From Bacillota bacterium (GTDB lineage: Bacteria; Bacillota; Clostridia; Peptostreptococcales; Anaerovoracaceae), in NCBI GenBank assembly GCA_017459895.1, contig JAFUCA010000006.1:1-64000 (forward strand): DNA of 64,000 nucleotides, given 5' to 3'. Under the pieces are notes generated by a model. The model saw only the letters and a program-made list of their open reading frames with translations. It made no database searches and had not been told where the DNA came from. Positions 1,748-63,892 of the stretch are shown in pieces. The translations under genes and the position numbers were made by a program. Position 1 is the first letter of the stretch; every line of letters starts with the position of its first letter.

Positions 1748-4062
1748 TGGCGGTCATTCCCCTCTTCATCGTCTTCGGCCTCGTCAGCCTCGGTCTCTTC
1801 GTCGGCCGCGTCGGTTTCAGCTTCCGTCTCGTCGGCCTCAGCCGCTTCACCGTCGGTCTCATCCGCCTCGGCCTCGCCGGCTTCCTCAGCTTCCTCGGCT
1901 TCCGGCTCCTCCGCGGTCGCCGGCTCGTTCTCAGGCTCCGGGCCATCCTCGAGATCCGGGTCGTCCTCGATGTCCGGATCCTCCGGCGCCGGCTTCGCCA
2001 GCCTTTGCTCGTCCAGCGGCTTCGCCGTCATCGTGACGTCATCGTAGGTCATGACCTTTGGCTTGAAGCGGGCGTTCCGGCCCTGCTCCTCGATGGACTT
2101 TGCCAGATCGTTCAGTTTCTGGCGCTCGGCCTCCTCGCGCTCCTCGGCTTCCTTCTTCTTGCGGATCTTCTTCGCCTGACGGGCCTCCTGGCGGTTCTTC
2201 TTCTCCAGCTCCTCCATGTGACCCTTCAGCTCCTCGCCCAGCTCCTGGGGCGTCTTCTCTCCGTTGAACAGCGCCAGGAACTGCTCCCGGTCAAGGGTCT
2301 CAACGACCAGCAGCCCCTCGGCCACAGCCTTCAGCTGCTCCATATGCTCCTCCAGGATCGCCGTCGCAGCATCGTAAGCTTCCTCGATGATGGCCTTGAT
2401 CTCCTCGTCGATCTCGTTCGCCGTCTCCTCGGAATAATTCTGCCGCGTGGAGAAGTCTTTGCCGAGGAACACCTCATCCGATGAGCTGTAGTTGACCGGG
2501 CCCAGCTTCTCGCTGAAACCGTACTTGGTGACCATCTCTCTGGCCACATCCGTCGCCCGCTGGATGTCGTTGGAAGCGCCGGTGCTGATGTCGTCCAACG
2601 TCAGCTGCTCGGCGACACGGCCGCCCAGCAGGTGGATGATCATCTCCCGCATCTCTTCCTTGGTACCGTAGCTCTTGTCCTCCTCCGGCAGGGTCATGGT
2701 GAAGCCGCCGGCCATGCCTCTGGGAATGATCGTGATCTGATGCACCGGATCGGTCTTCGGCAGACAGTTGGCCACGACCGCGTGCCCCGCTTCGTGATAG
2801 GCAGTGAGCTTGCGTTCCTCTTCGTTGATGACCCGGCTCTTCTTCTCCGGTCCCGCGATGACCTTGGTGATGGCTTCCTCGATCTCGTCCATGCGGATCT
2901 GGATGCCGTTTCTCCTGGCCGCCAGCAGGGCCGCTTCGTTCAGCATATTCTCGATATCCGCCGGCGTGAAGCCAGGGGTTCTCCTGGCCAGCACCTTCAG
3001 ATCCACGCTGGGATCCAGCGGCTTGTTCTTCGAATGAACCTTGAAAATCTCTTCTCTTCCCACGATGTCCGGCCGGCCGATGACGATCTGCCGGTCGAAC
3101 CGTCCGGGTCTGAGCAGCGCCGGATCCAGCACGTCCGGACGGTTGGTTGCCGCCAGGATGATGATGCCGGTGTTCTCCGCGAATCCGTCCATTTCAACCA
3201 AAAGCTGGTTCAGCGTCTGTTCCCGCTCGTCGTGGCCGCCGCCCAGGCCCGCGCCGCGCTTACGTCCCACGGCGTCGCTCTCGTCGATGAAGACGATGCA
3301 CGGGGCGTTCTTCTTGGCCTGCTCGAACAGGTCCCGGACTCTGGACGCACCGACGCCGACGAACATTTCGACGAAATCGGAGCCGCTGATGGTAAAGAAC
3401 GGCACGCCCGCTTCTCCCGCGGTCGCCTTGGAAATATAGGTCTTGCCGGTTCCCGGCGGGCCCACCAGCAGGATTCCCTTCGGGATCCGCGCACCAAGGC
3501 TGTTGTACTTGGCGGGGTGTTTGAGGAAATCGACGATCTCCTCCAGTTCTTCCTTCTCCTCCTTCAGACCGGCAACGTCTTCAAAGGTGATCTTCTTCTG
3601 GTCGCCCTTCTGCAGCTTGGCCCGGCTTTTGCCAAAGGACATGGCCTTGCCGCCGCCGCCCTGCTGCTGCATGATGAACCAGAACAGGAAAATCATCAGT
3701 CCGACCATGATCAATGTGGGCAGCAGACTCAGCCAGATGGACTCCTTCTTCGGAGCCGGACTGGAAAGCTTCAATGTGCCGTCCTTGACCTGCGGCATGA
3801 TGTAATCTTCATAGATGAAACTCATGTCCACCGCGCTGTTGACATAAGTGTATACTTTGTCTCCGGACTTCAGCTCCGCCGTCAGCTGGGTCTCCTCCAC
3901 CCGGATGCTCTCCACCTCATTGCTCTTGAGGTAGCCGATCATCGTGGATTCCTTGACCTCCGTCATCTCCGGCGTACTGTCCAGATTAAAAAACCATATG
4001 AACCCGATAACGAGCGCGAATATGACGATCCATACGGTTAAATTTCTGCCTCTTTTATTCAA
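1744..4062 (-). CDS. ftsH: ATP-dependent zinc metalloprotease FtsH
   Basis: Membrane-anchored AAA+ protease that extracts and degrades membrane and short-lived cytosolic proteins. I see two membrane segments (near residues 9-25 and 115-135), Walker A GPPGTGKT, Walker B IVFIDE, the second region of homology ([20 protein letters not shown]) and the zinc site HEAGH. The start chosen is a TTG at 4062 with the ribosome site GGGAGG just upstream; a longer reading frame exists but lacks a site. The 772-residue product is longer than the usual 610-660 because of a charged tail, first Lys/Glu-rich, then very acidic with repeated EEA/DEA runs over the last 80 residues. The tail probably sits in the cytosol; its function is unknown. 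Confidence 0.95.
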
Positions 4063-4089
4063 GCTCTGTTTCCTCCCTGAATTACTCCA

Positions 4090-4111
4090 TTTTTGTCGGC
4101 GCCGACAAAAA
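4090..4111. promoter_or_regulatory. Perfect 22-bp palindrome upstream of ftsH
   Basis: Two arms TTTTTGTCGGC and GCCGACAAAAA abut with no spacer. The site lies 28 bases upstream of the ftsH TTG start and just downstream of the minus-strand AT-rich block (4112-4140) that should hold the promoter, so it probably overlaps the transcription start. The symmetry and place fit an operator; the regulator is unknown. It could also fold as a 5' leader hairpin in the ftsH mRNA. Confidence 0.55.
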
Positions 4112-4231
4112 TACAATGTAATTCTATCATGCAAGAACAAATAATTCAACGCTCTCAGGTGTAGATTCTGTGAAATCTGCGCTTTTTCAGTCATGATTGC
4201 ATTCCGCTGCCATTTCCCGTAAACTATAGCC

Positions 4232-4549
4232 ATGAGCAGAGCATTTGTAACCGACAAAGAAGATTGGGCCTATTGTGCAAAGGCTGGCGAGCGCTGTATG
4301 CACGCAGAGCCGGGCAAGGACTGTCGAAGAACGGACTGCGCGCACTATCACCGCCAGGCCGCGCCCATTTCCGATGCGGACGCACCCGGCCTGCGGATCG
4401 TCGCCCGGCGGAAGAAACAGCCCGCTTGGGAAGGTCGCCCGGCGGCGAAAAGCGAGGCCGGAAACGGTGCGAACCCTGGTGGGAAGACCCGCCGCGCCAA
4501 CATAAAAATGCCCCGCAAGTGGGGTGGCCGCAGCGGGAATATTTTTTAG
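4232..4549 (+). CDS. Small cysteine-containing hypothetical protein
   Basis: A 105-residue protein starting [15 protein letters not shown]. The N-terminal third has regularly placed cysteines (YC, RCM, DC, DC within residues 14-37) and a nearby histidine, which suggests a small zinc- or metal-binding module, while the rest is basic and rich in Arg, Gly and Ala. It is divergent from ftsH and precedes the C39-like gene by 32 bases, probably in one transcript. I recognise the Cys-spaced N-terminus as the kind of short conserved protein seen in Clostridia but cannot name a family. The dispersed word GCAAAGGCTGG lies in it (4277-4287). Confidence 0.6.
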
Positions 4550-4581
4550 ACCCCCTTAGTCCTAAAGGGAGGCAGCGGATC

Positions 4582-5448
4582 ATGGAACTAAGCTGCAACA
4601 ATGTTACCTATCGTTTCCCGGACGAGGCGCTTACCGGAACGGACGCTCCGGTCACGGAAGCGGTGGTACTGCGGCCGGCCGACCCGTCGGCGACCGATTC
4701 CGCAGGCATCACCTCGGCAGCGGCGGCCGCGAAGGCTTTGCCGGCTGAGCTGCACTATCACATCTACGCCCAGCGGCGACAGGGAAGCCGCTACCTCGCA
4801 GCCCACGGCTGCTCGCTTTGCGCGCTGGCAAGCCTGATCGGCGCAGTGCCCGCACCGGATGCGCCAGCCTTTGCATCGAATGAGGAGGCTGCGGAGATTC
4901 TGATGAGTCTGGAGGCAGCCCGAAATGCATTGCTGGGAGATCGCAGGCGGCAGCTACTCAGACTGCGGCCGTCGAAACTGGCAGGACCGCACACGTTGAA
5001 ACTGCGCGGTCCGCTGGCCCGCTCCGCGCGCATGCCGCTGAACATCGCCGGCGTTTACCGGATTCTGCAGTTGTTTATGGACGCGGAATATCTTGATTCC
5101 GGAGCGGAGAAGGATCCGGCAACGGACCAGCGGATCCGGACGTTTATTACTGACCGCGCCAGCCGGGGCATTCCTGTTCTGGCCACCGGCAAATCCATCC
5201 CTTCCCTCAGCGGCGCGCCCCTCTGCCCCCGCAGCGCCCACACGTTCCTGATCATCGGCATGAAGGATCCCTCTACTTTAATCGTTGCTGACTCCGCCGG
5301 CCTGAACGACGAACGGATCAAATTCGTGAATGTTGACACCGTCATTTCCGGAGTCCTGAGCTCCGGGATCCGGACCGCATTAAAAAAAGGTCAATACTAC
5401 TACCATCGTTTTCACGATGGCGGCTTGCTGTCGCCGCGGGAGTTCTGA
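4582..5448 (+). CDS. Putative C39-like cysteine peptidase
   Basis: A 288-residue protein. Starting at ATG 4582 (ribosome site AAAGGGAGG) gives MELSCNNVTYRFPDE. The pattern HGCSLCALASL (near residue 76) places a candidate catalytic Cys at the head of a helix, HTFLIIGM (near 235) a histidine, and VADSAG a following Asp, as in the peptidase C39-like (PF13529) fold. No signal peptide is visible, so it may act inside the cell or belong to a protein that has lost export. The middle (about 105-160) is Arg/Leu rich and not typical of the family. The substrate is unknown. Confidence 0.6.
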   Translation: MELSCNNVTYRFPDEALTGTDAPVTEAVVLRPADPSATDSAGITSAAAAAKALPAELHYHIYAQRRQGSRYLAAHGCSLCALASLIGAVPAPDAPAFASNEEAAEILMSLEAARNALLGDRRRQLLRLRPSKLAGPHTLKLRGPLARSARMPLNIAGVYRILQLFMDAEYLDSGAEKDPATDQRIRTFITDRASRGIPVLATGKSIPSLSGAPLCPRSAHTFLIIGMKDPSTLIVADSAGLNDERIKFVNVDTVISGVLSSGIRTALKKGQYYYHRFHDGGLLSPREF

Positions 5449-5668: not shown

Positions 5669-5683
5669 CCGGTTATCGGTTCT

Positions 5684-6847
5684 TTAAGATATAATGACCC
5701 GGCCTTTCTTCACGGTCAGGCGATGCCCCCGGGGAAACTCGACGGTCTTCGGGGCTTGCTTTTTAGAAATGATCGCGTCTGCTGCACGCAGTCGCTCTTC
5801 GGAAATGTCGCTGGTGAGGCCTGCTTCCATGAATGCTCTCGCGACGACCCGGTGGCGGATGGCCTCGGGGAGATCCGCCAGGCCCTGCCGGTCCAGCACG
5901 ATCGGGGCGCCATGTTCGACAGTATCACCCTCGCCAGCTCCGACACCTGCCTCGCTCCCATCCGCAGCCGCACTGGTCTGCCGCAGCTGTCCATACGCCT
6001 CCTTGGCTTTCTGCCACAGGTATTCTTTGTCCGCGGCGGCGATCCGGGAAAGGCGGGCCAGAGCGCTGATGATGTTCGGGTTGTACTCATGCAGCAGCGG
6101 CAGGACTTCCAGCCGGATCCGGTTCCTCGTATAGATAGGCTCATGATTGGTATGATCGATGACAGGATGCAGATCGTTGTCATCACAGTACTGTTCGATC
6201 TCGGAGCGGGGCACGTCCAAAAGGGGCCGGATGACCGGGATTCCCTGTTCAGATCGCTTATAGGCGATGCCCGATAAGCCGTCTGTTCCGGTGCCCCGCA
6301 GGATCCGGTGCAGGATGGTTTCCGCCTGGTCGTTGGCGTTCTGAGCCACAGCGATTCTGACGCGCGGGTCGTCCTGCATCGCCGCTTCCCGGGTCAGCTC
6401 CCCGCCCGCAATCTCTTGGGCCATCTTCCCGCCCGCAATCTCCCGCGCCACGCACACGAAAGCATCGTACCGGGCTTTGCGGCCGGCTTCTTCCGAGGTC
6501 ATTCCCAGTTCCCGCGCCATAGCGTTCACATCCACAACAAACGACCGGCAGAGGGTTACCCGGCTGCCGGGAGCCGGCCCCGCGCCGGCTCCACCTCCGG
6601 CCCTCCTGCCCGCTTCCGCGCACAGCTTCTCGACATAGGCCTGGTCCCGCTCCGCATCCCCGGGGCGGAACTGATGATTGATGTGCACCGGATGGATCGT
6701 CAGATCCAGCTCCGCCGCCAGCCTTTGCAGCACGTGAAAGAGGCAGACCGAATCCGGTCCGCCGGAAAGCCCGAGGACGATTTGGTCGCCGGTATGGATC
6801 AGGTCGTGATCCTGAATCGTTTTTCGCACGGTATCGATCAGTGCCAT
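5684..6847 (-). CDS. tilS: tRNA(Ile)-lysidine synthase TilS
   Basis: Modifies C34 of the AUA-reading isoleucine tRNA with lysine, using ATP. The PP-loop SGGPDS (residues 29-34) and the following HINHQFR segment are clear, and the C-terminal EFPRGHRLTVKKGRVIIS resembles the end of the TilS substrate domain. At 387 residues it is between short and full-length TilS. Two odd insertions stand out: a Gly/Ala/Pro stretch near residue 82-96 and a tandem IAGG-containing piece near 135-158. The start ATG at 6847 has GGGAG nine bases upstream. Confidence 0.92.
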   Translation of the reverse strand: MALIDTVRKTIQDHDLIHTGDQIVLGLSGGPDSVCLFHVLQRLAAELDLTIHPVHINHQFRPGDAERDQAYVEKLCAEAGRRAGGGAGAGPAPGSRVTLCRSFVVDVNAMARELGMTSEEAGRKARYDAFVCVAREIAGGKMAQEIAGGELTREAAMQDDPRVRIAVAQNANDQAETILHRILRGTGTDGLSGIAYKRSEQGIPVIRPLLDVPRSEIEQYCDDNDLHPVIDHTNHEPIYTRNRIRLEVLPLLHEYNPNIISALARLSRIAAADKEYLWQKAKEAYGQLRQTSAAADGSEAGVGAGEGDTVEHGAPIVLDRQGLADLPEAIRHRVVARAFMEAGLTSDISEERLRAADAIISKKQAPKTVEFPRGHRLTVKKGRVIIS

Positions 6848-7678: not shown

Positions 7679-9016
7679 TTATTTCTCCCCGTTCGGACGG
7701 ACATTCAGCAGCTCCCGCTGCGCCTGCCGCGGATCCTTCTCCAGGGACCAGGTCTCACCCATGACCATCGTACTGCGGTCAGCGGCGTCGTATACGGTCC
7801 ACTCCGGGATCAGCTCGTTGTTCGGATCTCCAGCCTTTGCGAAATGGTAGTAGGCGGACATCATCATGGGCTGCAGATCAGCCGGGAGCTTCGCTGGATC
7901 CCCCGAGAGCTCATTGTAGCCGTCATCGGTATTGCCCAGACCGAAGAGCATTCCCATGGAGTGCTGGGGCCGGTCGTAGGGCGAGATCTCCGGCTCCATG
8001 CCGTTGGCCTCACAGTAGCCGGCGATATCCTCGGCCGCCGGGCAGTAGGTCCAGAAGTAGGCGTAGGTGTCGGTGTACCCGGAGAGCGCTTCCGCTTCAT
8101 ATTCCGTACCCTGCACGTAGATCACATCGTTGTACAGATCCACCGCTGCCTTCACCGGATCTTCGTCCGTCGCGAGGAACGCATCCCAGTCGATCGCCGG
8201 AGTGCCGTCCTTTTTCACCGGATTGATATAGTACGGGACCTCCGCCGCGTAGTCCGTTCCCGCATCCGAAGACTTGGCCGCAATGTAGTTTTCCCAGACA
8301 GCCTCCGGGTCCTCCCAGAGATCGCCCTCTTCGCTCTCCCAGTCGTAGGCCGCCCAGTCGTTCTCGCCGCTCATGCAGCCGATCATGACCTTGACGCCCT
8401 TTGCGCTGCCATCCCGGATCCGGTCCCACCAGTCGGTCGGGATGATCTCACCGTCAGCATAGATCAGCCCCAGACCCTGCAAATTCTCAAAATACTGGTC
8501 CAGTCCGTTATCCTTGATGTCGGTGTCAGACAGAGCCAGAAATTCATCCAGCGTTTTGACCCCGAAAAGATCAAAGATCATCTGCGCTTCTTCCTGTTTT
8601 TTCTCCAGTGTACAGCCCGCCACCTGAGGCGCGCCGGACTCGATGATAGCCTTCTGAAAATACTGCGTCGCATCCTGCCCCTTCGCCAGCATATAGGAAA
8701 TCGCCATGCCGCCGCAGGACTGGCCGCAGACCGTCACATTGCCCGGATCCCCGCCGAAGCCTTCAATGTTCTCACTGATCCACTTCAGTGCCTGGATCTG
8801 ATCCAGCAGGTGCAGATTGACGGCACTGGCGTACTCGTCCGTGTATCCTTCCAGATCCTTCAGGTAGATGTTGCCGAACAGATTGGTCCGGTAGTTGATG
8901 CTGACGAACACCACGTCCTCACCCTCCGGGACATTCCGTACGAAGCTGTCACCCTCGTACATCGGATCGGTACTCTTCATGACTTCATTGTAGAGCGACG
9001 GACCCCGGGAGGCCAT
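7679..9016 (-). pseudogene. Type-B carboxylesterase, 5'-truncated
   Basis: The 445 residues match the para-nitrobenzyl esterase/carboxylesterase family from SINYRTN onward, including the nucleophile elbow GQSCGG (usual form GESAGG) and the IIESGAPQ strand. The first 100 or so residues of the family, with the HGG oxyanion segment, are missing: the frame begins MASRGPSLYNEVMKSTDPMY directly beside the LuxR remnant. There is no ribosome site at the ATG. With the oxyanion residues gone I expect no normal activity. It ends in unassigned DNA 5' of element J. Confidence 0.7.
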
Positions 9017-9027: not shown

Positions 9028-9582
9028 CTAGTTTTTCAGATTAATGATATAGATGAGCTCCATCCGGCTGCTGACGCCGGTCTTTTCATAGATGTTCTGC
9101 AGATGCTTCTTGACCGTATTGCGGGAAATGAACAGCGCCTCCGCGATCTCCGGGTTGTTCTTTCCCTCGTAGACCAGGCGCAGGACATCCAGCTCCCGGA
9201 CGGTCAGACCGTGCTGCATCGCGGCAAGTTCCAGAAGATCCGGCGCCTCCGCCTCCTCATCATGCAAAGGCTGGCCCTGCGCGGGTTTCCCCTCCGGGGC
9301 CCCGCCAGCCTTTGCAGAAGAATCCGGATAGAACAGTGGGCTGAAATCCTCCCGGAACAGGAACAGGAACGTCGCCAGGCCCATGAGAAACACGGCGGGC
9401 GCCGTTGTGTCCGGGATCCCCTCCGTCCAGGCGGAGATGAACCGTCCGGTGTAGAGACCCCCGTCCACGATCTGCTGCATGATGTCCCAGAGGCAGAAAA
9501 TCACCGAAACGAACCCGACGTAGCGCTGACGCCGGGAGCTGGTGGTGACGCGGAGGGCCTGTTCCAGCACGCGGTGGCTCAT
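9028..9582 (-). pseudogene. LuxR-type membrane regulator, C-terminal part
   Basis: The last 65 residues form a clear LuxR/GerE helix-turn-helix (LTVRELDVLRLVYEGKNNPE, then ISRNTVKKHLQNIYEKTGVS). Upstream are two hydrophobic segments (VGFVSVIFCLWDI and PAVFLMGLATFLFLF) joined to a Gly/Pro-rich linker holding two copies of the dispersed word in opposite orientation (9264, 9305). Only about two membrane segments remain where the multi-TM LuxR family has several, and the frame upstream runs antisense through the esterase fragment. So the gene is broken near 9545-9582. Confidence 0.6.
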
Positions 9583-10536
9583 TCCGGCAGCGTCAATCTG
9601 ACCTTCAGCCGGGACGACTTCAAGACCGTCGGTGACCGCTACGGCGCCGAGCAGACGGCGGGCAAGAGCCAGGCCCAGATCCTGATGGATGTGTCCGGCG
9701 CGAAAAACATGGACGATCTGATGGCCATCTCCGAGGAGGATATGATCCGGTACCTGTGCGATGAGACCGTCGACGAGTGGGAGGACACCATCACGGATTA
9801 TTACAACTTCCCGCTGCGGGGTGACGGCAGCATCATTCCGGAGGATCCCTACCAGGCCATCGCGGACGGGGTGAACAAGGATGTTGACTTCATCACCGGA
9901 ACCAACGCCGATGAGTGGAGATACTGGGTCGACGAGATGGGTCCGGAAGCGGTTGTCGGCCAGGGTGACGCGGACGCCGTTGCCGAAAACCTGGAGGCCT
10001 ACAAGGAAGCCATCGCCCAGGTCAAGTACGATGAAGCCATGGCTGCCGCGGCCAACGATGATGAGAAGGCCGCCGTCGACAAGATCCTGGAGCTGTCCGG
10101 CGAGACGGATCTCTGGTGGCAGCAGACGGAAATCGGCAATGAGACCGGCTTCCGCATCCCGTCCATCGTCTGCGCTCAGAACCATGCAAAGGCTGGCGGA
10201 ACCTCTTACATGTATTACTTCGAGAAGAAATCTGATTCCGAGGAATGGCTGGGGGCCTGCCACGCATCCGAGACCGCCTATGTCTTCCACAACCTGACCG
10301 GCGCCGGCTTCTCCGGCACCATGGATGAGGGACTGGCGGACAATATGTGCGCCGCCTGGGTCAGCTTCGCCACCGACGGCAACCCGTCCACCGACGCTGC
10401 GGAATGGACCGCCTACGATGAAAACGACCGGGCGACCATGATCTTCGGCGACGACGGTTCCCTGAAGATGGAGAACGATCCTCTGGGCGAGCAGCGCGAG
10501 CTCATGGAACCCTTCGCGTATTACTATCTGAAGTAA
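9550..10536 (+). pseudogene. Type-B carboxylesterase, C-terminal fragment
   Basis: In frame, GLFQHAVAHSGSVNLTF is the strand after the nucleophile elbow of a carboxylesterase, and GTNADEWRYW, the region around HASETAYVFHN (likely catalytic His) and a normal C-terminus YYYLK follow. The N-terminal 200 residues, including the catalytic Ser, are absent and replaced by the antisense LuxR remnant. It is on the opposite strand from the first esterase fragment (7679-9016), with related but distinct sequence, so two paralogues seem to have been broken by a rearrangement. Confidence 0.65.
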
Positions 10537-11303: not shown

Positions 11304-12968
11304 TTACGGAATCGCGATCGGATCCACGGTACGCAGGATGCAGTCACCCATCCCGCCGGTGCCGTTGTTCATCAGGATCACCAGATGCTTGTCATCCACG
11401 AAGCAGCTTTCGATTTCTCCGATGGGCACGTTGTAGCTGCCCAGGTAGGCACCGTCGCTGATCCGGTACAGATCGATGTAGCTGGTGTTGCCCGCCACCC
11501 AGGTGCAGACCATGGCAACGCCGTTGTAGGCGCCGATGTCCTGGGCGTGGTTGTAGCGGATGCGCTTCCAGATAAACTTCTCTACGTTGAACTCATCGTC
11601 GCAGACGTAGATCTCGTTGCCCTTCGAAAGGCAGTATTTATTGTTCGTCCAGTCATAGGCGATGCCGGAGGTGACCTTCGGCAGCTGGAACACCTTCTCC
11701 CGGCTGCCCGTCTCCGGATCGTAGGCGGAACACTCCGCAGAGCGGATCTGCCGGTGGGTCTTCACGGTGTAGACCCGTTTCGTGTTCGGATTGTAGGTGC
11801 TGCCGTTGGCGTGGCCCATACCGCTGATGCCGGTGGTATCCAGCCGCTCGCCCTGATTGCTGTAGGTCACCAGGGCGCCGGTGCTGCCCCCGTGGTCCAC
11901 ATAGGTCACCACATAGTTATTCCCCACATGGCTCATGGACTGGGGAACGGAAGCTCCGCCGCTGCCGGAAATGTGCGCGACGACCTCCATGTTGGAACCG
12001 TCCAGGGTCATCAGGTTGTGAGAGCCGCCGTAGCTTTCGGCGCTCGCCGCAGTCGCCTTGACCTTCACCGCCTCCGACGGCTCGCTCTCGATCTGGTCCT
12101 CCCCGACGGTAGCTGTTGCCTTGAGCTTGTACTTCGCCTGATCCCGAGGCATCTCCACCGAGATCGTATCTCCGGTGAACTCCATCAGATCGCGGTATTT
12201 CTTCTTCGCGGGATCGTATCTGCGGAGGGTGTAGCCTTTGGCGTATTCCACCGGATCCCAGCGAAGGGTCACGGTCGTATCGGTCTTATCTCCGACTTTC
12301 ATCTGCGGGGTGTCCAGCGTATCCGGATAGACCGTGACTGCGACGGTCTTCTCCGCCGCCTTGTACTGATCGCCCTCCGCCACCTGAATGGTCACCTCCG
12401 CATGGCCGTCCTTCTTGTAGGACATGACGCCTTTTCTGGAAACGGCCACCACCGACGGATCGCTGGAGGTGTACGTGATGTCGCCGTGGGCCTCTGCCTC
12501 CAGCGGCCCCTTCTTGTCCTCCAGGCCGACGTATTTATCCTTTTCGGTTTCTACCGTTTGCTCCAGCTTTTGCGTCGTCACATTATCCGATGTGGCCGCG
12601 GAAAGCCCGCCGATCCGGTTGACGGCCGTGACGGTCACCCGGTATTCCAGATCCAGCACGTCCAGCTCGATCCGGCAGTGCGGCTCCTGCGCCCGGTAGA
12701 TCTTCGGCCGCTCTCCGTTGGTCTGCAGGAAGACTTCGTACCCGTCCGCATCGGCATCCTCCCAGTTCACCTCCAGCCCTGTGCCGTCCTGTTTCACATC
12801 CAGGCCCGTCACTTCGTACTGTCCCGTGCTGATCATGCTGGTGAAGGCAAGCGTTCCCATCGTCGCAACACAAGCGGCGACCATGAAAATCATCGCCGCG
12901 GTGTATTTCAGTGCCTGATGCCGGCCCTTGAACAGGCCTTTTTGAAGCCATCCCTTCAGTTGACTCAA
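11304..12968 (-). CDS. Membrane-anchored Fn3/Big2 protein with propeller-like C-terminus
   Basis: 554 residues. A short basic N-terminus and one hydrophobic segment (about 23-46) anchor or export the protein. Next come an Fn3-like domain (55-130), a Big2-type domain with the hallmark ITYTSSDPSVVAVSRKGVMS (about 150-225), a second Fn3-like domain (230-310) and a C-terminal part (320-554) with repeated strands such as NNYVVTYVDHGG and NKYCLSKGNEIYVCD, which look like beta-propeller blades. Start is TTG at 12968 with GGAGGA eight bases upstream. Likely cell-surface, ligand unknown. Confidence 0.7.
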   Translation of the reverse strand: MSQLKGWLQKGLFKGRHQALKYTAAMIFMVAACVATMGTLAFTSMISTGQYEVTGLDVKQDGTGLEVNWEDADADGYEVFLQTNGERPKIYRAQEPHCRIELDVLDLEYRVTVTAVNRIGGLSAATSDNVTTQKLEQTVETEKDKYVGLEDKKGPLEAEAHGDITYTSSDPSVVAVSRKGVMSYKKDGHAEVTIQVAEGDQYKAAEKTVAVTVYPDTLDTPQMKVGDKTDTTVTLRWDPVEYAKGYTLRRYDPAKKKYRDLMEFTGDTISVEMPRDQAKYKLKATATVGEDQIESEPSEAVKVKATAASAESYGGSHNLMTLDGSNMEVVAHISGSGGASVPQSMSHVGNNYVVTYVDHGGSTGALVTYSNQGERLDTTGISGMGHANGSTYNPNTKRVYTVKTHRQIRSAECSAYDPETGSREKVFQLPKVTSGIAYDWTNNKYCLSKGNEIYVCDDEFNVEKFIWKRIRYNHAQDIGAYNGVAMVCTWVAGNTSYIDLYRISDGAYLGSYNVPIGEIESCFVDDKHLVILMNNGTGGMGDCILRTVDPIAIP

Positions 12969-19823: not shown

Positions 19824-19844
19824 TCCCTGACCCCTCCCCACACA

Positions 19845-48230: not shown

Positions 48231-48259
48231 TTGCAAGCTTCTTGTTATGGGTGTATAAT
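48231..48259 (+). promoter_or_regulatory. Promoter of the 48306 surface-protein gene
   Basis: TTGCAA (48231-48236) and TATAAT (48254-48259) are 17 bases apart, and the gene has a ribosome site GAGGAGGAG at about 48291. Confidence 0.7.
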
Positions 48260-48305
48260 GACATATGTGAAATTTTCAGAAAATTCCTTGAGGAGGAGTG
48301 ATGAG

Positions 48306-49780: not shown

Positions 49781-49838
49781 TTACCATGGATTTACCTATC
49801 CGGCTTTGAGGTTTGAGATCATTTGAGGAGTGTATCAG

Positions 49839-56815: not shown

Positions 56816-59800
56816 TTATTTCACCTTTATGGCCTTACGGGTCTCACCGTAGTAGATCTTTCCCGCCACCTTCTTGAAGGGGCGGACCTTCACGTAAACC
56901 GGCTTTCCCTTTTTCGGCCGTTTGATGGTGACCTTTGTCTTCTTTGAACTCCGGACCGTTTTGACCTTGGCCTTTGTCATCTTCTTGTTTGGCGAATAGA
57001 TGATCTGATAGCCGCTGGCGTTCCTGTACTTCTTAATGGTGACCTTCACCTTTTTCTTCCCGGATTTCACCGCCTTATGACCGGTCGATGCAACGTACCG
57101 GTAAATGCTGCCGGACCAATTGCCGCAGATCCACTGTCCCCGGCTGTTCTTCTCAAAGACCGTTACCTGTACCTCGTAGACGCCGTTCCTGGCAAGGCCG
57201 CTCACGGTGGTCTGCGTCTTTCCTCCGGTCCACTGGTATTTCCATGCACCGGCCGCCTTGCTGCGATAGCGCAGGCGATAATTCAGGGCGCCCTTCACCG
57301 CCGGGATCTTTAAGGTCATGTTCTTTTTCTTAACATTGACCTTCGAAGCGATCTTCGCAGACGGGATCACTGGGATCGAGCGGTCCACCGCAGCCAGCGC
57401 AGCAGCGGCGTCGGTGGGAGTGATCGAATCGCGATCCTGTCCCTGATAAATAACCAGCGCGAGGTCGGTCAGTCCAGCCTTTGCCTGCTCCGGCGTCAGC
57501 TTTGCCATCGCCTCCTTCAGCAGGCTGCTGTTTGCATCCTGCGCAGCAAGAATATTGGCGATTTCCTTAGCAAACGTGTCAACGAAGGCCTTCTGCTCCT
57601 TCGCCTCTTTGACGATCAGGTCCGCCATGAACGCCCAGGTATCCTCGTTTCCTTTCTGCTGCATGTACTCTCTGGAACCGATCATCCGAAGCAGATCCTC
57701 CAGGGCGATCCGGTCGAAGCTTCCTCCGGTAACCTTCAGTTTCGTCACGGCGTCCGGATCCATCAGAATGTGGCCCTCGATGCGGCCGCCCTCAATGCGC
57801 AGGCCTCCCGACGCTTTCACTGCGGCAGTTGCTTCGCTGCCTGCGATCGTTCCCTGATGATCGGACTCATCGATTATCGTCATCTCCCCATCGGAACCGA
57901 TGCTTAACAGCGCCTCTGGCGTCTCCTCCGCGCCTGCCGTTTCTGCTGCCGACAGGCGGCACCCGTTCAGATCCAGTGTCACCGGTTTCGCGGTCTGCCA
58001 CAGACCGCTGCCTTCCGCATCCTGGAACAGCCGTATCCGAAGATCCGCATCCAGCTCCTCCTGCGCAGACAGAGTCTCAAAGGCCCAGTCCAAAGACCTG
58101 CAGCACAGCAGCTGTCCATCGCTTCCTGTCAGCACCGCCGCGATCCCTTCTCCCGGTGCATCCGGATCTGCCGGATCGAACGTCCAGTGATCCCCGGACC
58201 CCAGGTCGATCCTGTTCAGCATGCGAACGCCCGGGTGCTGATACTCTTCCGGAAGCGCGCCGTCTTCCATGATCCTCATCCTGCTTCCGGCATAGGGGAA
58301 TTCGGTCTCGCCCAGTTCCTTCTCCATTGCATCCAGCAATTGATCCAGTGACACGCCGAAGGTCTTTTTGCTTCCGGTTTTTTTCTTCCACTGGTCGATG
58401 GTATAGCCGCCGGCAAGCTGTTCCTGCACCAGCCGGGAAATGATATCCTGTCCCTGAGGGAGGTACTCCGCATCCCTCATCAGGGCATCCCAGGCCGCAT
58501 TGGTCCCGGCGGTCTGTTCGCTGTTGTTCATCCGGTCCACTCCCAGCCGCTGGCTCATCTGAAGAACTCTTTCATTCTCCATAATGCTCCGGAGGACAAA
58601 GCTCTTCAGCGCGTTCATTTCTTCGCTGTCATGGGCCGCCGTTGCCGTAACGTATTCTCCTGCCGCTCCTGCAAAGGCTGAGGGGCCCCGGACCAGACCG
58701 TATTTTGACGGATCCGGATTCGGAAACTCTGCCGCTGTCACGAACCGGCCGAGGCTGCGTCCCTGAGATCCCTGGGGCGCGACCAGATCATACTCCGCCA
58801 GCTTCCGCTCAAGGGACAGCCAGGTGCTGACCTTATCTCCCGTATCCAGTTCATCCCAGGCGGGACTGACCATTCCGGCCGCCGGCATGGCCGCTTCCGC
58901 AAGCCCCTCCGCGCTGCTCAGCAGATAACAGTCCTCCGGCGCGGCCTCTGATTTGCCCAGCCGCAGATCCTCTCCCAGCCGGACGAAGTCCTGCCAGCTG
59001 CCGATCTTTTTCTGTACCTCCGCGGGATCATCCGTCCCGAGCAGGGCTTTGGCAACTGCCCTGTCATACAGGAATCCGCCAGGATCCACCCGATAGGCCA
59101 GCGCGTACAATTTATCGGCGCCATCCTCATTTGCCATCGTCTCATCCTTCGTGAACGAGTACGCCTTCCCCGGGAAGCTGTCAAATCCGAGGGCTTTCAG
59201 ATCGACCGCCGCATCTGAACCAAGCTGTTCCCGGATCATAAAGGCTGGCCAGGCGATCAGATCCGAAGCTTCGGCCCCGTTTCTCGTCTGGAATTCCTCT
59301 TCCAGATACTCCTGGTAAAACCGATACTTCGCTTCGGTGCCGGCTGTGCCGAGCTCCATGCCTTCGTCTGCTTCGATATATTCGATGTGTTCCGCCAGCT
59401 CCGGATACAGACCCTGAATGGTACTGATCAGCTCCGGCATTCCGCTTCCCTTCAGGCAGGTGACCCAGAGAACGTCGTTTTCCTGGAATTCCAGGTCTTT
59501 CAGTTCCTCCGGCAATGCCTCCGGATCCATGATTTCCATCGGAACAGAGAGCTCATAGGTCTGCTGATTGTACTGCAATACTGCGGATACCGTCAGCTTC
59601 TGACCTTCCTTCGCATCCTCCTTCGCCCGGATGAACGAGCCTTCGATCTCCGCCAGCTGCAGGCCGATCTCATCCAGCGTGTATTCGCCGATCACCTCCT
59701 CCGGGAAGGCATCCGCGGAAACAGTCACCACCTCCAGATCCGGTATTATATCCTCGTAGCTGTCGTCCTCCTCGTAAGCGTCCGGATCCTCCGGCTCTCC

Positions 59801-61627
59801 TTCTCCAGCTTCTTCTTCCTCTTCCAGATCCATCTCATCCTCGTAGACATACATCGCAAAAGGCACGGCCCTCTCAGCGCCCAGGGTCAGCCAGGTGTTT
59901 GTCTCCGGCACGAATCTGGGGAAAAGGGTCAGCTCCGTCGAGACGGTCACCGAGTCGCCGGCAGGCGTCCTGACCTTGCAGCTGATCGTAATGGAGGCCG
60001 GCTCTGTCAGGGATCCCGTCACAGTCAGCCGCTCTTCGCCGGAAACCTGCTGCAGCTTCGCCTTGACCGCATCTGCAGCTTCTCCGGCAACCGAGGCCTT
60101 CCAGCTGCCGGTCGTATAGCCCTCCGCGAAATTTTCGAGGGAAATGTAGGAGTCGTTCAGAGCGCTCTGCTGAACACCAACGCTCAGTGTCGCTGTTTCC
60201 CCAAGGATCACTGCCCGGCTGTTGTTGTTAAAGATCCTCGGCGACAGATCCCGAATATCAAAGGTCTCATGCAGATATCCGTATTTCGCGCAATAATCCT
60301 CGACCAGGATCGACGACTCCGTTTCGTCGTCGTAGTCCACCGTCAGCTTGGGGAACGTCTGAAAGATCAGTTCCCCCGCAGGACGCAGCTGCCCCGCCTC
60401 CACCGGCGGATCCCCTTCCACCAGAGGGTTCTCCAGCGCGTCTTCCAGATCTTCGGCCCACAGGGTGCTGATCTTGCGGATCTTCGGGCAATTGCTGCAG
60501 AGCGGGGCCACCGGCTGCAGTTCTCCCAGATTGATCTGCTCCAGATCCGCCTTGTCCCGGAAGGCGTTCGGTAAGATCTCTACCACATCCATCACTTCGC
60601 CGTTATACTTGAACTGGGCGGGTACGGAAACCTTTTTCGCAGACCCATGGTATTCCACGATGATCGCTTCCTCGTCATCTGCATATACTTTATAGGTCCA
60701 GTCGCCCTTGGTCACGACTTCGGATCCGTCGATCAGCTCATACCCGAACCTCTCACAGTAATCCCTGATCGTCCAGACGTCCGCGTCGTCCTCGCTGTCG
60801 TCCCACCAGCAAAAATCACTGTCCTCGCATAAGATCTGGATCCGGTCACTGTCGACCGGCCCGAGGATCATCGGTCCTGCTTCTCCCCTTCGGAAACCGG
60901 CCTCTGTATTCTGCAGCGTCACCTTCTTCAGCTTCGGACAATTGATGAACAGATAGGCCGGGAAATCGGAATAATACAGATCCGCTTCCTGAAGAGCCTC
61001 GCATCCTTCAAAGGTTCCCGGCAGGATCCTGGTGATCTCCATCGGGTTCCATGACGGATGCTGATCCGCGTAATCATCCAGATCATCCTGTACATTCTCC
61101 AGCGAAGCGGATTTCAGCTTCGCATCGGTTCGCGTACATTTCGTGACATAGCAGTAGGAACGGAGATCCTCATCGATACCAAAAAAGTCACTGTCTTCCT
61201 CCGACACGGATGTCAGCCGGAGCAGTTCCCAGCTGCCGCGGCTCTCCCGGATCCCCTCGGTGAAGATCCCCTCCTTTACCAGCGTTCCGCCGTAGCTGTT
61301 TTTACCTGTGATCGTGATCCTGTACCCTGCATCTTCCGGGGAGCCCTCCAGCTCCAGATCGTAATCGACGCCCTCCTGCAGGGACACCGCCGTTCCGTCT
61401 TCCGCCACATGCACCAGCCGCACAATAGGCTTACGCGTCTGCGGATCCGAACCGTCCCATTTCACATATCCGGTCAGATAAACCACGCTCTGATCCTGCA
61501 GGTCTACGACTTCATCCGCCTCAGCGACGGCCGGAAGGAAGCAGCCGGCGACTGTCAGCACTGTGATCACCAGCGCAGCTGCAAGCTTTCCGCTCCATGG
61601 CCTGTGCTTATCGTTTCCCTTTGTCAT
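56816..61627 (-). CDS. 1603-residue surface protein: leucine-rich repeats plus solute-binding-like domain
   Basis: Signal peptide (ALVITVLTVAGCFLPAVAEA). Residues 60-420 contain BspA-type leucine-rich segments (ILPGTFEGCEALQEADLYYS, ILPNAFRDKADLEQINLGEL). Residues about 720-1140 resemble a bacterial ABC sugar-binding protein (MIREQLGSDAAVDLKALGFD, YALAYRVDPGGFLYDRAVAK, LGTDDPAEVQKKI). The C-terminus (1430-1603) is a Lys-rich Fn3-like pair. Combining an SBP-like domain with LRRs on one surface protein is unusual. Start ATG 61627 with AGGTG. Ends convergently with the HicB fragment. Confidence 0.7.
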   Translation of the reverse strand: MTKGNDKHRPWSGKLAAALVITVLTVAGCFLPAVAEADEVVDLQDQSVVYLTGYVKWDGSDPQTRKPIVRLVHVAEDGTAVSLQEGVDYDLELEGSPEDAGYRITITGKNSYGGTLVKEGIFTEGIRESRGSWELLRLTSVSEEDSDFFGIDEDLRSYCYVTKCTRTDAKLKSASLENVQDDLDDYADQHPSWNPMEITRILPGTFEGCEALQEADLYYSDFPAYLFINCPKLKKVTLQNTEAGFRRGEAGPMILGPVDSDRIQILCEDSDFCWWDDSEDDADVWTIRDYCERFGYELIDGSEVVTKGDWTYKVYADDEEAIIVEYHGSAKKVSVPAQFKYNGEVMDVVEILPNAFRDKADLEQINLGELQPVAPLCSNCPKIRKISTLWAEDLEDALENPLVEGDPPVEAGQLRPAGELIFQTFPKLTVDYDDETESSILVEDYCAKYGYLHETFDIRDLSPRIFNNNSRAVILGETATLSVGVQQSALNDSYISLENFAEGYTTGSWKASVAGEAADAVKAKLQQVSGEERLTVTGSLTEPASITISCKVRTPAGDSVTVSTELTLFPRFVPETNTWLTLGAERAVPFAMYVYEDEMDLEEEEEAGEGEPEDPDAYEEDDSYEDIIPDLEVVTVSADAFPEEVIGEYTLDEIGLQLAEIEGSFIRAKEDAKEGQKLTVSAVLQYNQQTYELSVPMEIMDPEALPEELKDLEFQENDVLWVTCLKGSGMPELISTIQGLYPELAEHIEYIEADEGMELGTAGTEAKYRFYQEYLEEEFQTRNGAEASDLIAWPAFMIREQLGSDAAVDLKALGFDSFPGKAYSFTKDETMANEDGADKLYALAYRVDPGGFLYDRAVAKALLGTDDPAEVQKKIGSWQDFVRLGEDLRLGKSEAAPEDCYLLSSAEGLAEAAMPAAGMVSPAWDELDTGDKVSTWLSLERKLAEYDLVAPQGSQGRSLGRFVTAAEFPNPDPSKYGLVRGPSAFAGAAGEYVTATAAHDSEEMNALKSFVLRSIMENERVLQMSQRLGVDRMNNSEQTAGTNAAWDALMRDAEYLPQGQDIISRLVQEQLAGGYTIDQWKKKTGSKKTFGVSLDQLLDAMEKELGETEFPYAGSRMRIMEDGALPEEYQHPGVRMLNRIDLGSGDHWTFDPADPDAPGEGIAAVLTGSDGQLLCCRSLDWAFETLSAQEELDADLRIRLFQDAEGSGLWQTAKPVTLDLNGCRLSAAETAGAEETPEALLSIGSDGEMTIIDESDHQGTIAGSEATAAVKASGGLRIEGGRIEGHILMDPDAVTKLKVTGGSFDRIALEDLLRMIGSREYMQQKGNEDTWAFMADLIVKEAKEQKAFVDTFAKEIANILAAQDANSSLLKEAMAKLTPEQAKAGLTDLALVIYQGQDRDSITPTDAAAALAAVDRSIPVIPSAKIASKVNVKKKNMTLKIPAVKGALNYRLRYRSKAAGAWKYQWTGGKTQTTVSGLARNGVYEVQVTVFEKNSRGQWICGNWSGSIYRYVASTGHKAVKSGKKKVKVTIKKYRNASGYQIIYSPNKKMTKAKVKTVRSSKKTKVTIKRPKKGKPVYVKVRPFKKVAGKIYYGETRKAIKVK

Positions 61628-61651
61628 TTCGTCACACCTCGCTTCTTTGTC

Positions 61652-63892
61652 TTATATAAGGGCCTTGATATATTTCATATACAGCTTTCCGCGCCAGCCT
61701 TTCTCCTTGTAGGCGGCGGTACAGGTTTCCATGCTGTAAGCGTATAACTCTTCATAATCCGCAACGCTCATGGTTCCGTCGCGGAACCGGTATTTCTGCA
61801 GCATCTCCCGCAGGTGATCCGGCAGTCCCGCTTCACTGTCTCCCCTCATCCAAAGGCTGGCCTTCAGCCAGGGCAGCAGCGCCTCTAACCGGTCTTCCGG
61901 CCGGAGCCTGCGCAGAATCCGGCTGCGCCGCTTCAGGATCCTGCGGCGGCGAAGCAGGATCAGTGCCGCCGCGAGGAGCAGCGCCGCGAGAAACGCTCCG
62001 ATGATGATCTGGATCATCCTTTTGAAGTCGCCCGGCTCCTTCTCCTGGGGTCCTTCGTTACGGTTGCTTTTGCTTTGCATCTGCTGCTGCGTCTGCTGTT
62101 TCTGCTGGTAGATCTCCTCTACGAAATCCGGGGTCACTTCCACCGGGACCCATCCGATGCCGTCCTTATAGATTTCCACCCAGGCATGCATATGGCTTCC
62201 GGAGATACGCTTCTGGTATTCCGGAAGCTCTCCGGATGTCCCGGACAGATCCACGTCTGTACTGAGCCTTGCATGGTAGCTCTGCCTGCCCAGACTGGCA
62301 AGATACCCCTCCGCGTACCGGGCCGGGATTCCAAAGTACCGAAACATCAGAACTCCCGCCGATGCGTAATAGCAGGAATTTCCCTGCCTTTGGGCAAACA
62401 TGAACCGGTACAGTGGATCCTTCAGAAGCGAGGGCCCGGTGCTGATTCCGGGCGCATCGTTCTTCAGCCACCGGCGGATGGTCTGCGTCGCCTCCAGGTA
62501 GCCCTCTCCATCGGAAGCCTCCAGCTGTTTTCGCAGCAGCGCCTCGGCCTGGGGATCCAGTTCCAGATAATTATCATATACGAACGTCCGGTACTCGACC
62601 TGCGCCTCACGAAAATCCTCCACCGAAGCATCGGCTCTGCGCGTATTCATCCATGCAGGGTTTCCTGCGGAAAAAGCCTCCGAAGTGTCGTACAGGATCG
62701 TATCGTATTCCATAACCGACGCGTCGTCCTCCGTCTGCCGGATATTCATATCCCGGTGGATCCCTTTGATGGTTCGGATGTCCGCGTCACTGATCCCATA
62801 TGGGATGTACAGGAATTTTCGGTTTGCTTTCAGGTTGGCAACCACCACGCGGCTCTTCCTGCCGCCGATCGTCTGACCATTTTCCTCCAAAAGCTGCAGG
62901 TACTGATAGTTCTGGGCCAAGGGGAAAAAGTCCCTGGTTTTGAGCCAGACGAACAATCCCGCCTGTTTCTTATTGTAGCGGGAAACATCGATCTCCTGCC
63001 ATCTGCCGTTCTGATACGTTCCTCCTACATACCCCTTGAGGTAATAGTTGCCGGACACATCCGCCCCGACGATCAGCCTGGTCCGATCATTTCCGCGATA
63101 GCCTGCAGCCTTTGCAAGATCCCCCCGGGGCGAGTCCTGCTCGCCGTAACGAAGGGTCTCCGCCTGATCGCTGACAGTCATGCGCATCGTATCCGCCAGC
63201 GCGCCTGGCTGATAGCTTCCCCACCGCATATAGGAAAGGCTGGCCGCCAGAGCCAACGCCAGCAGCAGGACCAGCAGGGCCGTCATCGATCTCTGTCCGA
63301 TCTGCCCGGATCTGCTCCAGATGACCGCGCCGGCAGATGCCACAACACCGAAGCAGCAGGCTCCGTAAGCTGCGGTGGCGTACAGGAACGCGATCAGCCC
63401 GATCAGCAGCGCCTGCACCAGCACGAACAGGAAGATCCTGCGCCGGTTCAGAAGCTCACTGTACAGGTAGGCCATGAGAAAAATCAGCGCAGAGGCAAAC
63501 AGGTCCACCCCCAGCTGCTGGGAAATCTGCTCCGGAAGCACGTAGTAGTAGACATCCGTGCCGTAGTGAACATTGAACAGGGCAATGCCGCCGTTCACCA
63601 TCTGCAGCAGCCCGGTTCGGAACAGGCCTCTGCCCGCCGTGACCAGCAGCGCTGTCAGCACGATGACCGCACCCAGAACCAGCTGCTGAAACCGGTGCGA
63701 GTTGATGCTGGCGCAGACCGTGCCGATGCCCGCCGCCGGAAGAAGCCAGCGCCAGTCCGGGGTCTCGATGAAGCCCTGTCCCAGAAGCAGCGCGGTGCCG
63801 AAGCTCGCGATCGCCAGCAGGATCAGCTTCCCGTAGTCCGTCCGTACGGTCTCTTTATTCAGATATATGATAAAGCCGTCTGCCGGATTCAA
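61652..63892 (-). CDS. Membrane protein with transglutaminase-like domain (TgpA type)
   Basis: 746 residues. Seven or so membrane segments at the N-terminus, a periplasmic/extracellular region with transglutaminase core (catalytic Cys in GNSCYYASAGVLMFRYFG, His in GSHMHAWVEIYKDGIGWV) and one C-terminal membrane segment (IIGAFLAALLLAAALILLRR). The start taken is TTG 63892 with GGGAGGAAAGG; a longer TTG at 63910 is possible. Such proteins usually sit with a DUF58 gene and a MoxR ATPase. Confidence 0.85.
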   Translation of the reverse strand: MNPADGFIIYLNKETVRTDYGKLILLAIASFGTALLLGQGFIETPDWRWLLPAAGIGTVCASINSHRFQQLVLGAVIVLTALLVTAGRGLFRTGLLQMVNGGIALFNVHYGTDVYYYVLPEQISQQLGVDLFASALIFLMAYLYSELLNRRRIFLFVLVQALLIGLIAFLYATAAYGACCFGVVASAGAVIWSRSGQIGQRSMTALLVLLLALALAASLSYMRWGSYQPGALADTMRMTVSDQAETLRYGEQDSPRGDLAKAAGYRGNDRTRLIVGADVSGNYYLKGYVGGTYQNGRWQEIDVSRYNKKQAGLFVWLKTRDFFPLAQNYQYLQLLEENGQTIGGRKSRVVVANLKANRKFLYIPYGISDADIRTIKGIHRDMNIRQTEDDASVMEYDTILYDTSEAFSAGNPAWMNTRRADASVEDFREAQVEYRTFVYDNYLELDPQAEALLRKQLEASDGEGYLEATQTIRRWLKNDAPGISTGPSLLKDPLYRFMFAQRQGNSCYYASAGVLMFRYFGIPARYAEGYLASLGRQSYHARLSTDVDLSGTSGELPEYQKRISGSHMHAWVEIYKDGIGWVPVEVTPDFVEEIYQQKQQTQQQMQSKSNRNEGPQEKEPGDFKRMIQIIIGAFLAALLLAAALILLRRRRILKRRSRILRRLRPEDRLEALLPWLKASLWMRGDSEAGLPDHLREMLQKYRFRDGTMSVADYEELYAYSMETCTAAYKEKGWRGKLYMKYIKALI

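Follow-up and report, generated by a model that had tools for sequence, protein, structure and literature searches.

A dispersed DNA word resembling an uptake sequence, with dialects and a pilus operon, in an uncultured genus of Clostridia

The locus and the word

The stretch of DNA described here, referred to as the window, comprises 64,000 nucleotides of contig C34 in a draft genome (G000; 2,495,951 bases, 55 contigs) of an uncultured member of the Clostridia. Dispersed through it is an eleven-base word, GCAAARGCTGG, which on comparative sequence grounds is probably a DNA uptake sequence that evolved independently and is read by a competence (com) pilus. The exact copies read GCAAAGGCTGG or GCAAAAGCTGG and number 29, with 14 on the plus and 15 on the minus strand; 100 dinucleotide shuffles of the window contained 0.09 on average and 1 at most. 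Allowing one mismatch, 60 sites are present versus 2.7 by shuffle. An earlier sequence-only reading had reported 28 copies, split 14 and 14, between positions 1998 and 63115. The abundance and the strand split are borne out, the exact tally is 29, and the last exact copy ends at 57484, position 63115 belonging to a one-mismatch copy. The "intergenic arrays" of that reading are too strong a description of copies that are dispersed and form only a few close pairs.

The gene calls are crude; the call at 9103-10536 (plus) is wrong, and Pfam supports a gene at 9028-10290 (minus). The gene names proposed earlier fit the Pfam matches: FtsH, TilS, carboxylesterase, MoaA, a CobT-type phosphoribosyltransferase and alanine racemase. 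The exact copies are:

1998-2008, minus, GCAAAGGCTGG, in the ftsH-like gene 1744-4257 (minus)
4277-4287, plus, GCAAAGGCTGG, called intergenic; overlapped by a plus-strand open reading frame (ORF), 4264-5448, without Pfam match
4864-4874, minus, GCAAAGGCTGG, called intergenic; overlapped by the same plus-strand ORF, 4264-5448
6718-6728, minus, GCAAAGGCTGG, in the tilS-like gene 5684-6847 (minus)
7830-7840, minus, GCAAAGGCTGG, in the carboxylesterase-like gene 7679-9016 (minus)
9264-9274, plus, GCAAAGGCTGG, in the LuxR-type gene 9028-10290 (minus); arm 1 of an inverted pair with 9305-9315
9305-9315, minus, GCAAAGGCTGG, arm 2 of the inverted pair with 9264-9274
10186-10196, plus, GCAAAGGCTGG, in the LuxR-type gene 9028-10290 (minus)
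12563-12573, minus, GCAAAAGCTGG, in gene 11304-12968 (minus), with fn3 and Big_2 matches
15319-15329, minus, GCAAAGGCTGG, in the DHH/DHHA2/CBS gene 15090-16037 (minus)
19025-19035, minus, GCAAAGGCTGG, in gene 18543-19841 (minus), without Pfam match
22401-22411, plus, GCAAAGGCTGG, in gene 20808-22673 (plus), without Pfam match
22941-22951, plus, GCAAAAGCTGG, in the alanine racemase-like gene 22812-24341 (plus)
23562-23572, plus, GCAAAGGCTGG, in the alanine racemase-like gene 22812-24341 (plus)
31584-31594, minus, GCAAAAGCTGG, in the aromatic amino acid lyase gene 30181-31722 (minus)
32042-32052, plus, GCAAAGGCTGG, called intergenic
38114-38124, plus, GCAAAAGCTGG, in the moaA-like gene 37898-38899 (minus)
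38275-38285, minus, GCAAAGGCTGG, in the moaA-like gene 37898-38899 (minus)
39417-39427, plus, GCAAAGGCTGG, in the MoCF_biosynth gene 38893-39954 (minus); locus L073 has GCAAAGGCAGG at the aligned position
42541-42551, plus, GCAAAGGCTGG, in the 4Fe-4S gene 42209-43123 (minus)
47482-47492, minus, GCAAAGGCTGG, in the cobT-like gene 46827-48236 (minus)
48032-48042, minus, GCAAAGGCTGG, in the cobT-like gene 46827-48236 (minus); locus L072 has GCAAAGGCAAG at the aligned position
49147-49157, plus, GCAAAAGCTGG, in gene 48231-49730 (plus), without Pfam match
50022-50032, plus, GCAAAAGCTGG, in the EamA transporter gene 49830-50804 (plus)
52532-52542, plus, GCAAAGGCTGG, in gene 50860-55446 (minus), with Big-type matches
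52764-52774, minus, GCAAAAGCTGG, in gene 50860-55446 (minus), with Big-type matches
52922-52932, minus, GCAAAGGCTGG, in gene 50860-55446 (minus), with Big-type matches
55370-55380, plus, GCAAAAGCTGG, in gene 50860-55446 (minus), with Big-type matches
57474-57484, minus, GCAAAGGCTGG, in gene 56816-61627 (minus), without Pfam match

Abundance, form and coding context

Genome-wide counts were controlled with the same pattern read backwards. GCAAARGCTGG occurs 762 times in G000, 381 times on each strand, far from the near-random tally that would count against an uptake signal (control 5); GCAAAGGCTGG occurs 300 times on the plus and 301 times on the minus strand (control 3). The core GCAAARGC was found 243 times in 386,546 sampled bases, or 0.63 per kb. 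This amounts to about one per 1.6 kb, near matches included, in good agreement with the 1.5 kb estimated earlier. The genome of Haemophilus influenzae is about 1.8 Mb long. Exact copies are sparser here (762 in 2.5 Mb) than the 1,471 nine-base copies given for H. influenzae in an extract of PMC1939737.

The word is surrounded by a halo of near matches. GCAAAGGCTGG has 109 copies without mismatch and 170 with one, against means of 0.2 and 7.9 (maxima 1 and 33) for 40 letter-shuffled words. Single changes fall at position 1 (36, of which 22 are G to C), position 2 (17; 13 C to G), position 6 (34; 30 G to A), position 7 (10), position 9 (15) and position 11 (55). Positions 3-5, 8 and 10 together account for 3, so that a conserved inner part is flanked by tolerant edges. 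This position-specific halo is the picture of a protein-read word. Around the 29 window sites, no clear conservation extends past about 12 bases. Regular spacing, which the earlier reading had suggested checking, was not seen in the G000 sample: placement is compatible with random (coefficient of variation 0.90; random 0.85-1.17).

Coding context was analyzed in a 396,546-base sample of G000, from which locus L022 (a duplicate of part of C34) and a 10-kb overlap had been removed. The sample holds 139 copies: 59 on the gene strand, 51 opposite (p = 0.50) and 29 called intergenic (21% versus 14.7% of bases, p = 0.054). The word is thus not polarised by genome strand, in line with the earlier claim, or by gene strand. 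The 110 in-gene copies cover all six codon phases (30, 27, 25, 14, 10 and 4), extending the earlier remark that several were in use. Synonymous-codon shuffling within each gene left a mean of 1.9 copies and at most 4 in 20 shuffles. Amino acid sequence and codon use therefore do not explain the word, and the earlier proposal of selection or spread at the DNA level stands.

Distribution and dialects

All 49 genomes of one uncultured genus (around UBA1191) were counted genome-wide. Five use GCAAARGCTGG and are called TGG genomes below: G000 (762), G011 (440), G001 (435), G010 (408) and G281 (334); the remaining genomes have 43 copies or fewer. Twenty-five others use GCAAARGCA (as GCAAAGGCAAC in G003), and a few have weaker words. 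GCAAARGCA reaches at least 150 per Mb in the 25 genomes besides G281 (549), with a top value of 1,020 in G265 and reversed controls of 17-137. Outside the genus, where counts covered GCAAAGGCTGG and GCAAAGGCA, no genome of 240 holds more than 12 copies of the former. For the latter, in 145 genomes, the highest count is 184, in a genome of 4.2 Mb, and the highest density about 63 per Mb (genome sizes rounded). Among the genomes searched, strong enrichment is confined to this genus.

The dialects were discovered by k-mer enrichment in genome samples with no word supplied. The top k-mers were GCAAAGGCTGG and its parts in G000, G001, G010 and G011, and GCAAAGGCA/GCAAAAGCA in G007 and G008. Enrichment was also found for GCAAAGGCAAC in G003, GCAAAGGCTA in G274, the degenerate GCAAAGGCC/GCAAAATCC in G269 and, weakly, TGCAAAGGGC in G199 and G184. 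The samples of G205, G210, G268, G276, G259, G160, G261 and G255 yielded no word of this kind. In whole genomes, GCAAARGCTA occurs 151 times in G274 (control 25), followed by G265 (57) and G269 (55). TGCAAAGGGC occurs 96 times in G184, 58 in G255, 57 in G199 and 56 in G276, with controls of 0-6 and 34 or fewer copies elsewhere; the k-mer samples of G255 and G276 had therefore overlooked a weak signal. Its copies in G255 are uneven by strand (17 and 41).

Two genomes have intermediate forms. Among 59 cores from G281, 44% have T and 42% have A at position 9; each of the 8 contigs sampled carries both forms, so this is no mixture of bins. In G012, GCAAARGCAGG is the commonest form, with 5 of only 17 cores. 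As a separate observation, G269 (98% complete, without a PilT match) shows no clear position 9 in 37 sampled cores (C 38%, T 32%); it is sister to G275, a GCAAARGCA genome with a pilus, and its dialect is possibly decaying after pilus loss. Other words were also over-represented. In the sample of the wordless genome G160 (L177-L180 and L150), CCTATAGGCC occurs 5 times versus fewer than 0.05 expected and CCTTAAGC 16 times versus 2.0, possibly another signal or a repeat. In the G000 sample the next words, unrelated to the uptake-like one, are CGTGACAA (48 versus 6.9) and AATTGTCACG (16 versus 0.26), possibly a regulator site.

A search with the window's methionyl-tRNA synthetase (MetRS, 40078-42174) returned 54 loci, nearly all from metagenome-assembled genomes (MAGs; goat, horse and others), including RUG names that we take to be rumen genomes; the host organism is uncultured. 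UBA1191 (L087) is among the closer loci, whereas a Mogibacterium MAG (L108) and Anaerovorax (L117) are more distant; the family would be Anaerovoracaceae. The MetRS tree holds 42 genomes; 7 of the 49, G010 among them, lack a usable MetRS. All 25 strong-word genomes in the tree fall inside one clade of 29 (support 100/100), with G266, G267, G269 and G274 as its weak-word members and the 13 other genomes outside. The four TGG genomes with MetRS (G000, G011, G001 and G281) form one clade (93/94) within it, in a group (96/97) with G003, G012, G280 and G006. On the most parsimonious reading, a GCAAARGCA-type word is the older one and changed once into GCAAARGCTGG, by way of GCAAARGCAGG and a mixed stage. 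The MetRS matches in most other listed genomes of the genus break at about residues 543-578 of the query, which looks like a clade-specific insertion; they are unbroken in G011, G001, G003 and G281, in agreement with the tree.

Origin of the copies

Homologues in the fetched relatives cover 51 of the 110 coding word sites of G000, and 137 of 185 site/relative pairs have no gap within six codons. Among these gap-free pairs, the relative retains the full word in 3 of 11 cases for TGG genomes, 0 of 10 for GCAAARGCA genomes and 1 of 116 for others; GCAAARGCA is found in 0, 2 and 2, respectively. Amino acid identity is 0.33 at word sites versus 0.55 at random sites drawn from those alignments. Gaps occur in 21.6% of the 185 word-site pairs versus 14.3% of 3,434 random ones (p = 0.01), 78% of the word-site pairs being gap-free. 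Given gap-free alignment and weakly conserved residues, most copies look like substitutions at tolerant positions; small insertions are possible for a minority.

Three aligned places carry both dialects. Two are window copies, at 48032 (GCAAAGGCAAG in L072, which by its coordinates is probably from G003) and 39417 (GCAAAGGCAGG in L073). The third lies outside the window on the same contig, in locus L133 (C34:322001-342000 of G000): a single aligned position, L133:15680, carries the TGG form in G000 and G011, GCAAAGGCAGT in G007 and GCAAAGGCAGC in G004, and is wordless in G010 and G264.

Competence genes and the pilus operon

The sequence-only reading had advised a search for comEC, comEA and pilus genes, and all three are present in G000. 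ComEC (C8:79117-81018) scores over cut-off in 33 and ComEA (C11:16019-16213) in 43 of the 49 genomes. The pilus operon (L133:11070-14891) holds genes for a GspF-like protein and a PilT-family ATPase, for a pilin-like protein of 104 residues and for three further small proteins that have a hydrophobic stretch at the N-terminus, one of which matches DUF4860. "Pilin-like" here denotes size, hydrophobic N-terminus and operon position. The four pilin-like candidates lie at L133:12138-13816, about 334.1-335.8 kb on C34. The GspF-like protein matches T2SSF over cut-off (143.5 bits) and the ComGB model under cut-off (124 bits; cut-off 240). The ATPase matches TIGR01420 with 411 bits (cut-off 319) and the ComGA model with 121 (cut-off 300). 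The operon gene order is much the same in the relatives examined.

Additional PilT- and PilB-type genes were noted. The PilT-like gene is found twice at 100% identity in G000, on C34 (335836-336888, in L133) and on C14 (L022, a 9.1-kb contig); the second copy is probably a duplicated or strain-variant contig of the draft assembly. In G003:C3 (L142), G280:C24, G261:C49 and G009:C135, a full-length PilB-type match adjoins a PilT-type one, besides or in place of the com-type operon. Directly upstream of the pair in G003:C3 is a protein whose N-terminus is that of a classic pilin.

Pilus type and dialect

PilT matches (E < 1e-20) were found in 28 of the 49 genomes, G280 having only a more distant ATPase, and types were set by identity to the G000 PilT. 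Type A (89-94% identity) is found in G011, G010 and G001, which with G000 itself are all TGG genomes; no PilT operon type was found in the fifth, G281. Type B (68-71%) is the best match in ten genomes, all of which use GCAAARGCA. Type C (50-58%) is a mixed group of 13.

G003, a GCAAARGCA genome, separates the operon from the remaining genes. Among ORFs with matches in both sets of sampled loci, 14 of the 16 outside its operon contig, including MetRS and ComEC, score closer to TGG genomes; since the tally takes in overlapping reverse frames, the 16 are not independent cases. Those that depart are the PilT of a separate pilus and its reverse frame. The G003 operon is closer to type B in GspF (70% versus 40%), PilT (75% versus 70%) and the four pilin-like proteins; a transglutaminase-like gene before the pilin-like genes is ambiguous. 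In the PilT tree, holding G003 with type A is rejected (p-AU, from the approximately unbiased test, 0.004, or 0.019 once four far rows are removed). The MetRS tree rejects a grouping of G003 with the clade of ten genomes that has most of the type-B pili (p-AU 0.0017); an earlier MetRS constraint (nine rows including G003, G278 and G284) did not isolate G003, and the test was repeated with MetRS's own clade. The G003 operon contig is native: its G+C content (0.60) and its AAC/AAT words match the remaining G003 genome, and it carries homologues of the genes found after the operon in type-A genomes. These lie about 9 kb downstream of the operon, versus 2.6 kb in G000, and no homologue turned up in the type-B loci sampled; by reading, the genes look aroA-, aroB- and HtrA-like.

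As PilT, GspF and the pilin-like proteins of G003 group differently from its other genes, the operon has its own history. In the window's lineage a change of operon goes with a change of word. We count this as support rather than proof, considering that it is one event, that G278 and G284 are discordant and that types B and C share GCAAARGCA. When the receptor was sought by divergence within the operon, no single protein stood out, since every pilin-like protein is strongly divergent between types and the discordance is clearest in GspF.

Interpretation

In most respects visible from sequence, the word looks like a DNA uptake sequence. The uptake-like signal proposed earlier is supported: none of the results named as refuting it appeared, and the dialects and the pilus-type match point the same way. 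A mechanism can be outlined. The host would be a naturally transformable, uncultured member of the Clostridia. The pilin-like proteins of the operon (L133:12138-13816) would bind word-carrying DNA, the PilT-like ATPase would retract the pilus, and ComEA and ComEC would pass one strand into the cell. Recombination would then favour word-carrying alleles, so that copies would accumulate by point mutation where proteins tolerate them. A pilus operon change in the window's lineage would have shifted the preferred word from a GCAAARGCAGG-like form to GCAAARGCTGG. We also lean, with somewhat less assurance than for the uptake reading, to a broader account: a third independent self-DNA uptake system, the first in Firmicutes, with genus-wide GCAAAG dialects, a PilT-driven com pilus, an operon replacement that switched the lineage's dialect, and G281 in transition.

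Several observations weigh against an uptake sequence read by this pilus. No pilin model of Pfam or NCBIfam matches the pilin-like proteins of the operon, and its ATPase is PilT-type, below the ComGA cut-off. Two-mismatch copies of GCAAAGGCTGG (174; mean 117) lie inside the shuffled-word range (maximum 290). Close inverted pairs show no clear excess in either dialect: TGG genomes have 10 close neighbours versus 6.4 expected in 713,061 bases (plus/minus pairs 4 versus 1.6), and GCAAARGCA genomes 7 versus 4.9 in 432,804 bases (2 versus 1.2), the pair expectation being a quarter of the close-neighbour expectation. Neither terminator pairing nor the gene-presence test gave support. In that test, PilT is present in 19 of 30 genomes with the word versus 8 of 19 without (p = 0.24), and ComEC in 21 of 30 versus 12 of 19 (p = 0.76); many of these draft genomes are incomplete, and G274 and G255, with weak words, were counted as wordless. 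Presence of PilT or ComEC, considered as the determinant of the word, thus shows no significant association with it. G273 (96% complete) and G006 (91%) have strong words and no PilT match. Pilus type and dialect do not map one to one: type C occurs with GCAAARGCA, with GCAAARGCTA or with no strong word, and GCAAARGCA is common to types B and C. The operon argument rests on a single dialect switch, and the PilT trees mark G003 as a long branch. G278 and G284 have type B yet are placed elsewhere by MetRS with their dialect unchanged, so the operon moves or evolves independently anyway. Two word-poor stretches are L013, with 1 copy in 20 kb, and L017, with 2. A mobile element was not borne out in L013: the 10 of its 16 called genes that were scanned match ordinary chromosomal functions (SMC, an EngA-type GTPase, a fatty acid synthesis protein, PASTA and others). 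G010 also carries a second, type-B PilT contig (L143, G010:C27), close to that of G264 and with a near-identical small pilin-like protein; it is probably bin contamination and was left out of the trees.

As one alternative, the word could mark where some other DNA-binding or DNA-modifying protein acts across the chromosome (nucleoid, repair or methylation), a HIP1-like word of unknown role and no uptake tag. The counts, strand balance, halo and dialects would fit any such protein that diverges, and pilus or ComEC presence does not significantly follow word presence. The word is no palindrome, however, and the pilus operon, unlike MetRS, ComEC and most tested genes, groups G003 with genomes of like dialect; we consider this explanation unlikely. 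A polarised signal, whether a Chi-like recombination site or a segregation or terminus signal, is suggested by GCTGG, which the word has in common with Escherichia coli Chi. It is contradicted by the equal strands (381/381 genome-wide, 14 versus 15 in the window, 59 versus 51 by gene) and by the fact that the GCTGG end is the part that differs between dialects; it was rejected as highly improbable. The excess of gaps at word sites (21.6% versus 14.3%) is what a repeat spread by insertion or a mobile element would leave. The lack of clear flank conservation past about 12 bases at the 29 window sites and the 78% of gap-free aligned sites at weakly conserved residues (0.33 versus 0.55) speak against a longer repeat, and six codon phases and the synonymous shuffle (1.9 versus 110) against a by-product of codon use or composition; both were rejected and have next to no probability. 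Finally, the word could be an uptake tag whose reader is ComEA or some unknown surface protein, with the change of operon a coincidence. ComEA is found almost everywhere in the genus (over cut-off in 43 of 49 genomes), and the pilus argument is a single event with GCAAARGCA in both types B and C; in Neisseria, on the other hand, the receptor is the minor pilin ComP according to an extract of PMC3868556. We regard this reading as improbable, and as a weaker candidate than another chromosomal protein.

Relation to known systems

HIP1 of cyanobacteria is an abundant palindromic word. The word described here resembles it in being short, very abundant, present in coding DNA and limited to one lineage, and differs in being non-palindromic and in having dialects. 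Like the DNA uptake sequence (DUS) of Neisseriaceae, it is short, non-palindromic and strand-balanced, occurs in hundreds of copies with a conserved inner part and variable ends, has dialects that follow clades, accompanies pilus and com genes and lies at tolerant positions. Unlike the DUS, it belongs to a clostridial lineage, in which taxonomy does not lead one to expect an outer membrane; its inner GCAAARGC is unrelated, the operon's pilin-like proteins match no pilin family and no ComP-like protein was identified. Inverted pairs are common in known uptake-sequence systems (extracts of PMC3630211 and PMC1852404), Neisseriaceae included (PMC3630211), and show no clear excess here. With the uptake signal sequence (USS) of Pasteurellaceae the word shares strong over-representation, a near-match halo and at least two types in one group. 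It differs in its inner part (GCGG in the USS, by an extract of PMC12616744), in the sparser exact copies noted above and in the lack of an AT-rich extension in the flanks of the 29 window sites. Membership in the DUS or USS families was rejected on the core GCAAARGC and on the MetRS relatives, which are clostridial MAGs and Anaerovorax.

The operon is similar to the Firmicutes ComG pilus in its GspF/ComGB-like protein, small pilin-like proteins and one ATPase; unlike there, the ATPase is PilT-type and the pilin-like proteins lack a pilin family match, one being DUF4860. In a pneumococcal study, DNA binding rests on charged minor-pilin residues (extract of PMC12040237). Over-representation of Haemophilus and Neisseria uptake sequences drops with mismatch load, and evolution by point mutation is cited there (Bakkali; extract of PMC1939737). 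In the sections available of PMC3630211, PMC5031613, PMC1939737 and PMC7811141, uptake sequences are described for Neisseriaceae and Pasteurellaceae only, both with an outer membrane. In a screen of Veillonella parvula (Firmicutes), no word of at least 10 bases reached 100 occurrences (extract of PMC5397411). Our literature search, whose coverage lay outside subscription papers and preprints, showed no uptake word reported for Firmicutes/Bacillota among the papers examined, and none of the literature on UBA1191, judged by title, concerned one.

Implications

If the word is an uptake sequence, it would be an independent case in the Firmicutes, and uptake words would evolve repeatedly. If the hosts are also monoderm, as taxonomy suggests, the preference for self DNA would be independent of outer-membrane crossing. 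Since the genus has dialects, apparent losses and an intermediate, receptor and word could be matched by comparison. The dialects would predict which gut species exchange DNA, and the word would suggest DNA that could be used for transforming these uncultured bacteria.

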